The notes under the pieces: generated by a model
Seen by the model: the letters and a program-made list of their open reading frames with translations, nothing else
The model's database searches: none
Told to the model about the DNA's origin: nothing
Source: Qipengyuania marisflavi
GTDB taxonomy: Bacteria; Pseudomonadota; Alphaproteobacteria; Sphingomonadales; Sphingomonadaceae
Assembly (NCBI RefSeq): GCF_005884405.1
Contig: NZ_VCAO01000001.1
Coordinates: 62,001-126,000 of the forward strand
Reading direction: 5' to 3'
Length of the DNA: 64,000 nt
In this document: positions 640-63,901 of the stretch, in pieces
How the letters are laid out: each line of letters starts with the position of its first letter
Position numbering within the stretch: position 1 is the stretch's first letter
Made by a program: the position numbers and the translations under genes

Positions 640-738
640 CTGGCATCTCTCCTGCTCGCCAAGCCGATATTAGCGCGAAGCCGCGAGGGCAAGGGTGCGG
701 ATGCCCGGCGGCTCAGGAAAATTGCGCTCAGATATGAG

Positions 739-771
739 AAAGGCGGCCCCGCCGAAACGAGAACCGCCTTT
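739..771. terminator. Symmetric hairpin, probable bidirectional terminator
   Basis: AAAGGCGG at 739-746 is complementary to CCGCCTTT at 764-771, giving an 8-bp stem with A and T runs on both flanks. On the minus strand it lies downstream of the 18-codon ORF and about 100 nt upstream of ilvE, so it could end that short transcript or act as an attenuator for ilvE. Confidence 0.55.
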
Positions 772-780
772 CACATGGTC

Positions 781-799
781 AGCGGCCGGAAGTGCCGCT
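781..799. other. Small GC hairpin downstream of the 18-codon ORF
   Basis: AGCGGC (781-786) pairs perfectly with GCCGCT (794-799) around a 7-nt loop. It stands between the 18-codon ORF and the hairpin at 739-771, so the short minus-strand RNA would have two consecutive stem-loops at its 3' end. Confidence 0.5.
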
Positions 800-825
800 C
801 ACAAAGCCTTACTCGGCAAGGAATG

Positions 826-882
826 TTACCGAATATGCTCCGTAGGGATCTTCACCGACCTCGCTACTGAACCATGAGACAT
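826..882 (-). CDS. 18-codon ORF with perfect anti-SD complementarity
   Basis: An ATG at 882 opens MSHGSVARSVKIPTEHIR and stops at 826. Immediately upstream, positions 884-898 carry 15 nt on the plus strand equal to the conserved 3' tail of 16S rRNA, so on the minus strand this is a full-length Shine-Dalgarno (GAAAGGAGGTGATCC) with 7 nt between GGAGG and the ATG. That is far stronger than any other ribosome binding site in this window. Two hairpins follow. The peptide is basic, lacks a signal or membrane segment, and I do not recognise it. It holds two Val and two Ile, so an ilvE leader-peptide role is conceivable but not compelling. It may be a real micropeptide, a leader, or an RNA that binds 30S subunits. 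Confidence 0.5.
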   Translation of the reverse strand: MSHGSVARSVKIPTEHIR

Positions 883-883
883 C

Positions 884-898
884 GGATCACCTCCTTTC
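884..898 (-). promoter_or_regulatory. Extended Shine-Dalgarno, complete complement of the 16S 3' tail
   Basis: The minus strand reads GAAAGGAGGTGATCC directly before the CGATG of the 18-codon ORF. Pairing would involve 15 consecutive bases of the 16S rRNA 3' end instead of the usual four to six. On the plus strand the same bases look like a 16S tail, but no rRNA gene is attached. Confidence 0.7.
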
Positions 899-1036
899 AA
901 GCTTGTGAGCTGGAGCCCGCGCTTCACCGGGGCCCGGGATCCGCGTGTGCCGCTGATCCTGCCTTCAATTTGTTGCGCCGGGCGCGTTAAAACAAGTCTT
1001 GTAAAAAAGTTTTCCCATGTCAGAATTGTCCTTTGT

Positions 1037-1071: not shown

Positions 1072-1623
1072 TCAGCGGCAATCCTCGATCACGCGGGTCA
1101 CTTCGGCCCAGGCCGGGATGTACAGCGCTGGCTGGCCGGGTACTTCCACCGCAAATCGCCCAATCGTCAGCGCCATCGCATCCAGCAGCGGATCTGCTGC
1201 CGTAACAGAAGCGCTGACAGCGCCGCCGCCATTTGCGGCCTTGGCAGCAAGCGCGCGGGTGGTGGTTTCGGTTCTGATGATTACGCTGCTGTCGCTGCGC
1301 TGGTCAGGCAGATAGCGAATCATGGCGATCTGGCGCGAATTGCTGGTGCACCCCAGCGCGAACAGCGGCGTGTCATTGCTGGAGCCGAATCGTGCCATTG
1401 TCCCACCATTCACGGCGCCATAGGTCCAGTTGCCCACGCTTTGCGGGGCATCAAGCCAGCTCGACATGGTCGGCACAGGTACGGGCGGCGGAGGCGGGGC
1501 GGGGCGCGGTGCAGGCACAGCGGCTGTCTCCGGGACCGGCGTCGGCTCGGGTGCCGGCACACAGGCCGCGATGGTGAAGGATAGCGCCAGCGCGCCGCCG
1601 AGATGGACATAGATCGGTTTCAT
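1072..1623 (-). CDS. Putative lipoprotein with Pro-rich linker
   Basis: The ATG at 1623 starts MKPIYVHLGGALALSF, a short basic-hydrophobic leader ending in a lipobox (TIAAC), so the mature protein should be lipid-anchored at Cys20. A Pro/Ala-rich stretch (about residues 22-52) follows. The rest, about residues 53-183, is a compact domain with a MSSWLDAPQSVGNW start and two further Cys, including the C-terminal VIEDCR. An in-frame start 15 codons upstream would put charged residues before the leader, so the inner start is preferred. I do not recognise the domain. It is divergent from tlyA with 34 bp between the starts, so promoters must be very short or overlap. Confidence 0.8.
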   Translation of the reverse strand: MKPIYVHLGGALALSFTIAACVPAPEPTPVPETAAVPAPRPAPPPPPVPVPTMSSWLDAPQSVGNWTYGAVNGGTMARFGSSNDTPLFALGCTSNSRQIAMIRYLPDQRSDSSVIIRTETTTRALAAKAANGGGAVSASVTAADPLLDAMALTIGRFAVEVPGQPALYIPAWAEVTRVIEDCR

Positions 1624-63704: not shown

Positions 63705-63838
63705 CGGGTGGGGGGAAGTAGCGGAACCACCATGGGTCGTTTGCCGGAGAGATCCTCTGACGCCTTCACGTCAGGTGGGCACCATATGCCCAAGCCTCCA
63801 GGACGAACCCGCATGCTCAGGCAGGGACAGCACCCGAG
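63705..63838 (-). ncRNA. ssrS: 6S RNA
   Basis: Minus-strand RNA immediately upstream of fau. A TATAAG -10-like box at 63850-63845 predicts a start near 63838. CGGGTG near the 5' end pairs with CACCCG near the 3' end to close a long irregular hairpin. Inside are a GGGT-CGT/ACG-ACCC helix, a central asymmetric bubble, and apical hairpins GGGCA/TGCCC and CTGACG/CGTCAG. This is the 6S architecture that mimics an open promoter and binds RNA polymerase holoenzyme. End positions are approximate. Confidence 0.75.
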
Positions 63839-63901
63839 GATTTGCTTATAGCCTCAGGGATGTACATGCGGCTCGTGCCGGGCAGTCCCGCCAAGCACTA
63901 T

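Follow-up and report, generated by a model that had tools for sequence, protein, structure and literature searches.

A short reading frame behind an extended Shine-Dalgarno sequence in Qipengyuania marisflavi: a probable sphingomonad branch of the CC2171 (RF01867) RNA family

Described RNAs of similar form

The described RNAs that come closest in form to the element reported here are rreB, from Bradyrhizobiaceae, and rreR, from Rhodobacter and Roseobacter, which were reportedly presented by Hahn et al. in 2017 as small mRNAs made up of an extended Shine-Dalgarno sequence (SD) and a very short open reading frame (ORF). In that work, membership is said to call for complementarity of 16 nt or more to the 3' end of 16S rRNA, placed upstream of a short ORF with a GTG start. 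The rreB RNA is said to bind the 30S subunit, to be weakly translated and to gain stability on removal of its start codon, and the accompanying survey of Hahn et al. 2017 reportedly named Caulobacterales, Rhizobiales, Rhodobacterales and Rhodospirillales but not Sphingomonadales. Attenuator leaders of the trpL type offer a second comparison, since they resemble the element in their short ORF, their hairpins and their terminator-like end. A third is family RF01867 (CC2171) of Rfam, which is typed there as an sRNA and in whose entry no ORF is apparent.

Two published data sets touch on this family. In an RNA-sequencing paper, MH_s33 of Mesorhizobium huakuii is assigned to RF01867 with a sequence length of 215 (PMC5596092). 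A ribosome profiling study of Caulobacter describes intergenic ncRNA regions as untranslated, but two formerly predicted ncRNAs as translated (PMC4117421). The literature search returned nothing that ties RF01867 to rreB or to sphingomonads, and most subscription papers lay outside it, so that this absence is unproven. The contrast described below, between a kept frame length and a mostly free peptide, was likewise not found there, though it may already be published elsewhere.

The locus and its relation to RF01867

The element was located on the minus strand of the window, by which is meant the whole stretch of 64,000 nucleotides of Q. marisflavi DNA that was analysed. Its features are listed in Table 1.

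Table 1. Features of the element, with positions counted from the first nucleotide of the window
Feature	Position	Strand	Basis
Extended SD, 15 nt complementary to the 16S rRNA 3' end	884..898	-	Sequence and genome scan
18-codon ORF, ATG...TAA, MSHGSVARSVKIPTEHIR	826..882	-	Sequence; TAA at 828-826
P1 helix, 5' strand, ORF codons 2-6, TCTCATGGTTCAGT	866..879	-	Minimum-energy fold; class covariation
P1 helix, 3' strand, GCTGACCATGTGA, abutting the terminator stem and overlapping it by two pairs	771..783	-	Fold; class covariation
Local hairpin, AGCGGC-ACTTCCG-GCCGCT	781..799	-	Sequence; genus alignment
Terminator-like hairpin, GAAAGGCGG...CCGCCTTTC	738..772	-	Sequence, genus alignment and P1 analysis
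Match to Rfam RF01867 (CC2171)	740..906	-	38.8 bits against a gathering score of 75
Possible promoter, TTGTTT, 17 nt, CAAATT	967..995	-	By eye; largely conserved in the genus alignment

The SD, which reads GAAAGGAGGTGATCC from 898 to 884, was compared with the 3' end of 16S rRNA from the rRNA operon of the same genome and complements 15 nt of it, as an earlier note on this DNA had claimed. That note had also described an ATG at SD spacing opening an 18-codon ORF, and both hold: GGAGG is followed by 7 nt and then by the ATG at 882-880, and the frame closes with TAA. Two occurrences of the 15-mer were found in the 2.67-Mb assembly, one being the element and the other the reverse complement of the 16S gene, and a reversed-pattern control of the 15-mer had 0 occurrences in the same assembly. 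Chance would give about 0.005 occurrences (5.3 Mb of strands / 4^15), and in the rest of the window the longest run complementary to the anti-SD was 9 nt, at 5 places. A chance match to the 16S tail was ruled out by the uniqueness of the 15-mer, by the distribution of the element in a sample of the phylum and by this 9-nt maximum. A remnant of an rRNA gene was ruled out as well, since the similarity to 16S ends at 15 nt and an Rfam search of the window returned no rRNA. Most relatives read have an SD run of 11-18 nt, and in many members of the class (Alphaproteobacteria) the complementarity to the 16S 3' end extends to 16-18 nt. The length is uneven, with runs of 11-12 nt in several class members and an interrupted SD in one locus (L295).

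The two hairpins of the earlier note are both present (799-781 and 772-738). The second is terminator-like in shape, as stated there, but has a poor T tract in Q. marisflavi (TCTCATAT) and was not listed by a simple terminator scan. The 3' strand of the first has three bases in common with the P1 helix (see below), so that the two compete there. Upstream, a consensus promoter scan of the window returned no site for the element, the candidate in Table 1 having been picked by eye. A near-palindrome, CAAGNCTTG, occurs in the window at about 1000-992 (minus strand) and also upstream of many family loci, where it falls on the presumed -35 region; it could serve as a -35 element or as an operator.

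At the gathering threshold, Rfam placed no family at the element. Below that threshold, RF01867 matched with an E value of 8.2e-7 in a 441-base search and 1.2e-6 in a search of the whole genome, and model positions 1-159 of 159 were aligned, with the middle aligning poorly. The extended SD, the start, the long-range helix and the terminator hairpin follow one another in the same order in the element and in RF01867. Both have GAAAGGAGGUGAUCC, N-UG-UCUCAU and a similar length, and in the model, as in the element, a long-range helix (CAUuGuC/GaCaAUG in RF01867) stands just 5' of the terminator hairpin. They differ in the sequence of that helix, which in the element is CAUGGUUCAG/CUGACCAUG, and in the start, which is an ATG after G in the element and a GTG after A in RF01867. 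Across the class, 96 of 385 genomes matched RF01867 at E<=0.01 and 13 of them exceeded the gathering score; the matches span 22-91 bits, and the weakest are possibly due to chance. Intermediates were found among genomes of the family Sphingomonadaceae, two of which (G139 and G200) reach E values of 1.5e-8 and 3.0e-8, while another (G188) holds both types. Among 14 control genomes, matches were obtained in Caulobacter vibrioides and in the unrelated Deinobacterium chartae, and one of these two exceeded the gathering score, the Deinobacterium match apparently being the one below it. The family that the earlier note could not name is thus identified, on sequence grounds, as RF01867/CC2171.

Some of the loci read lie still closer to the described small mRNAs. 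Three of them (L291-L293), in genomes of 6.9-8.0 Mb belonging to one family (f178), have a GTG start, a 17-nt SD and 14 codons, and a fourth (L296), in a genome of another family (f29), has a GTG start, a 17-nt SD and 18 codons. We take these four to fit the description of rreB and rreR. RF01867/CC2171 is very probably the same as rreB/rreR, and the RF01867 match together with relatives that fit rreB would make the window element the sphingomonad branch of a known kind. It departs from the reported description of rreB and rreR in having 15 nt of complementarity where at least 16 are given, and an ATG where a GTG is given, and the sphingomonad peptide is unrelated to that of rreB/rreR.

Distribution and gene neighbourhood

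A blastn search with the 306-nt element matched 56 of 60 genus genomes, and the four misses were assemblies of 350-420 contigs that are 75-93% complete. In the 56 aligned members, the 28 nt that run from the SD to the end of codon 4 had zero substitutions, synonymous sites included. The earlier note had proposed conservation in related genomes as a check, and within the genus it was found. With a loose SD-ATG pattern, 224 of 298 family genomes were recovered, and the few matches with other spacing look unrelated. When the order was sampled, the pattern was present in 31 of 35 genomes of the family, once with three mismatches, and in 0 of 83 genomes of other families, and blastn with the 306-nt element matched 0 of 39 such genomes. 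At up to three mismatches, the pattern was found in 78 of 385 genomes of the class and, in a sample of the phylum, in 29 of 51 Alphaproteobacteria (10 at three mismatches) and in 3 of 149 other genomes, all at three. The one match outside the class that was read (L301) opens a long frame that looks, on inspection, like an oxidoreductase. An exact 25-mer, searched in named genomes, returned at least 119 loci; the 80 matches listed were Sphingomonadales or MAGs of broader name and included Sphingomonas, Novosphingobium, Sphingobium, Erythrobacter and Qipengyuania. The pattern searches in family and class usually gave one copy of the element per genome. Two copies, L299 and L300, were seen in one family genome (G188); they represent the sphingomonad type and the type found more widely in the class, the latter with a P1 sequence of its own.

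For comparisons across the class, 60 loci (L208-L267) were assembled from the best 30 of the 96 RF01867 matches and the first 30 of the 78 pattern matches. L240 and L243 (ORFs of 58 and 56 codons) and L258 (no SD) were removed by hand, and thinning by similarity and length left 39. Family loci were thinned to 44 and then to 42; L092 stands outside the ORF list because its frame ran off its contig, and L291-L302 were excluded from class and family counts. Most loci were gathered by patterns that contain the SD and the start, so the conservation of these two within the sets is in part a product of the selection. Two measures are free of this requirement for the exact SD, namely the blastn search of the genus and the RF01867 model (which itself includes the SD).

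The earlier note had suggested that the element might be a regulatory leader of ilvE. In 118 of 192 loci this gene was found downstream within 2.5 kb and in the same orientation (median distance 280 nt), and it was not found within 2.5 kb (or within the shorter stretch present) in 74 of 192, counts that are genus-heavy (56 or more of 206 loci) and that were obtained with the 213 ilvE residues inside the window as query. A transcription attenuator, in which translation of the short frame controlled read-through into ilvE, would be in keeping with this proximity and with a short ORF followed by a terminator-like hairpin, but we regard it as very unlikely: ilvE is missing downstream in those 74 loci, so its control is not the general function, the form of the element is kept in many families of the class, and the ORF has no run of branched-chain codons. 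The element also differs from leaders of the trpL type in its far longer SD and in lacking both a regulatory run of codons and a fixed gene downstream. It is therefore most likely not an ilvE leader.

Upstream of the element, on the same strand, a 183-residue protein was encoded in 150 of the 166 loci with at least 700 nt of upstream sequence, and in 119 of 135 such loci outside the genus set. In the window this protein (1072-1623, minus strand) is lipoprotein-like and has a proline-rich stretch, and Pfam returned no family for it. Elsewhere in the window, a 6S RNA was observed at 63720-63891 (minus strand; 47.3 against a gathering score of 46.4).

Reading frame, peptide and the P1 helix

Across relatives the start is NTG, usually followed by TCN, and the 39 class loci comprise 21 with GTG and 18 with ATG. 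In the family, all 42 thinned loci reach a stop after 15-20 codons (sd 1.0, against 22 and 39 in the other frames), and in the class all 39 do so after 20-30 codons (sd 2.0, against 30 and 70), with TAA, TAG and TGA all in use. Such a kept length, with scatter in the other frames, is expected of a translated frame whose length matters. Exceptions speak against a universal ORF length: L240 and L243 have an identical extended SD and an MSHGA start, yet ORFs of 58 and 56 codons. The 14-codon frames of L291-L293 also fall outside the class range of 20-30. By eye, the long frames of L240 and L243 resemble signal-peptide proteins.

Residues are kept far less than length. Between lineages those beyond the first few are not kept, and within the family most after codon 5 vary. 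Over codons 6-18 of the 95 distinct 18-codon family frames, the entropies at the three codon positions were 1.03, 1.10 and 0.78, so that the third position varies least. Close pairs of frames differed by 62 synonymous and 393 other changes, a synonymous share of 0.136 against 0.283 expected without selection, which indicates a direction and is not a test, as the 205 pairs have common history and are not independent. Two features of the peptide are more constant. Ser9 (TCG) is fixed in 95 of the 95 family frames, and a TW motif is common to 12 of the 39 class peptides (several in L208-L246), often continuing with I or V, any residue, A and S; the Ile and Ser codons of this continuation vary synonymously, and the Thr codon is ACC in 12 of 12. 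With respect to purifying selection on amino acids, the entropies and the synonymous share would argue against it, and TW and Ser9 leave room for it; the fixed ACC and TCG appear to point to the RNA as much as to the peptide. It was also observed that the hexamer GGTCGG (codons 8-10, about 859-854, minus strand) stays the same in all 95 family frames, synonymous sites included, and lies outside P1, and that two clearly different versions of codons 6-18 (VARSVKIPTEHIR and AERSASFRAEHYR types) occur inside the genus behind identical starts.

The first codons are constrained by pairing. The minimum-energy fold predicted for the RNA of the element in the window (-104.8 kcal/mol, z -3.5) includes P1, in which 879-866 pair with 783-771, and leaves the SD unpaired apart from three pairs within itself. 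Both strands of P1 covary in the class (CAUUGUC/GACAAUG, CAUUGCC/GGCAAUG, AUGAGAUU/AAUCUCAU, CAUGAAU/AUUCAUG and CAUGGU-UCAG/CUGACCAUG), and ORF positions 10-18 show several pair types across it. Duplex energies in the 39 class loci, with the 3' strand placed solely by the terminator-like hairpin, were -10.0 kcal/mol for own pairs and -7.34 kcal/mol for cross-paired strands, and 0 of 20000 permutations were as good. With an unanchored 180-nt target the signal was weaker (own -12.0, cross -11.1; 24 of 20000 permutations). When strands were shuffled, 0 of 300 shuffles reached the own value in either class or family. An automatic test found at least five contiguous P1 pairs in 34 of the 39 class loci and in 37 of the 42 from the family. 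The five family loci that failed all carry the GCTGACCATG strand, and the terminator was therefore wrongly picked there; the five class failures, unlike these, stand unexplained. A helix is already drawn at this position in the Rfam consensus (CAUuGuC/GaCaAUG), so P1 itself is no novelty. What is added here is that the length of the frame and its stop are kept while most residues are free, and that the helix between codons 2-6 and the terminator-adjacent strand carries compensatory changes throughout the class.

These observations bear on the micropeptide that the earlier note had proposed, taken here as a functional product of 14-30 residues for whose sake the gene would be kept. A strong SD and the retention of start, stop and frame length would suit such a product, as would TW(I/V)xAS in 12 of 39 class peptides, with its synonymous variation at Ile and Ser, and the family-wide Ser9. 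We nevertheless consider it unlikely, since the invariant Thr and Ser9 codons suggest the RNA as much as the peptide, the variation after codon 5 is least at third positions with a synonymous share below neutral, and codons 2-6 are accounted for by P1 pairing. The proposal retains the TW motif in its favour and is otherwise poorly supported, and the element is probably not a working micropeptide gene.

Proposed gating by the ribosome

On balance we favour, as reasonably probable from comparative sequence evidence, the reading that the element is an independent small mRNA or sRNA gene gated by the ribosome, that it forms the Sphingomonadaceae branch of the RF01867 family, and that its peptide is mostly a by-product. 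Under the proposed mechanism, the largely exposed SD would dock free 30S subunits. P1 would lie within the 30S footprint and mRNA channel, and the RNA would be in one of two states, closed so that initiation is blocked, or opened by a ribosome as it initiates; as codons 2-6 are part of P1, binding of the 30S subunit and formation of P1 should exclude each other. The long SD would hold the subunit on the structured start site until P1 opens, the short frame would then be crossed to a stop at a set distance, and the ribosome would be cleared and P1 re-form. The stability of the RNA, its hold on 30S subunits, or both, would in this way follow the availability of ribosomes. The behaviour reported for rreB, namely binding of 30S subunits, weak translation and stabilisation on loss of the start codon, would fit such a mechanism.

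Two other roles share parts of this scheme. One, likewise raised in the earlier note, has the RNA act solely as a decoy for, or a store of, 30S subunits or the anti-SD, with the ORF incidental. An RNA that grips 30S subunits fits an SD that is longer than translation needs and is kept in most relatives read, and this part of the proposal stands. An incidental ORF is contradicted by a stop position and frame length that are tightly kept while other frames scatter, and titration would require very abundant RNA, given that a genome usually carries a single copy; as a whole we judge the decoy quite unlikely. The other is a base-pairing sRNA acting in trans on mRNAs, as CC2171 was first classed in Caulobacter, with the ORF as a second function. 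This would agree with the sRNA type listed in Rfam and with the stand-alone layout, and would give a place to the family-wide GGTCGG at codons 8-10, which is otherwise unaccounted for; it is, however, also quite unlikely, because the most conserved stretch is taken up by the SD and P1.

The preferred reading, ribosome gating of a small mRNA, can tentatively be extended to the class, though we think this possible and not likely. The element would then be an RNA by which Alphaproteobacteria sense how many ribosomes are available, with the act of translation conserved and not its product. In it the extended SD would capture 30S subunits, P1 would report the loading of the channel, the fixed frame would time the departure of the ribosome, and the stability of the RNA or its hold on 30S subunits would adjust translation or the ribosome economy.

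The comparison links a database sRNA, RF01867, with small mRNAs that have an extended SD, and adds sphingomonads to them. It also gives an odd pattern of conservation a testable reason: RNA pairing fixes codons 2-6, and the length of the frame is kept while its peptide is kept little. If the proposal is true, many Alphaproteobacteria possess a small RNA that exists in order for a ribosome to bind and traverse it. This would bear on the sensing of free 30S subunits by cells and on the reason why selection keeps an over-long SD.
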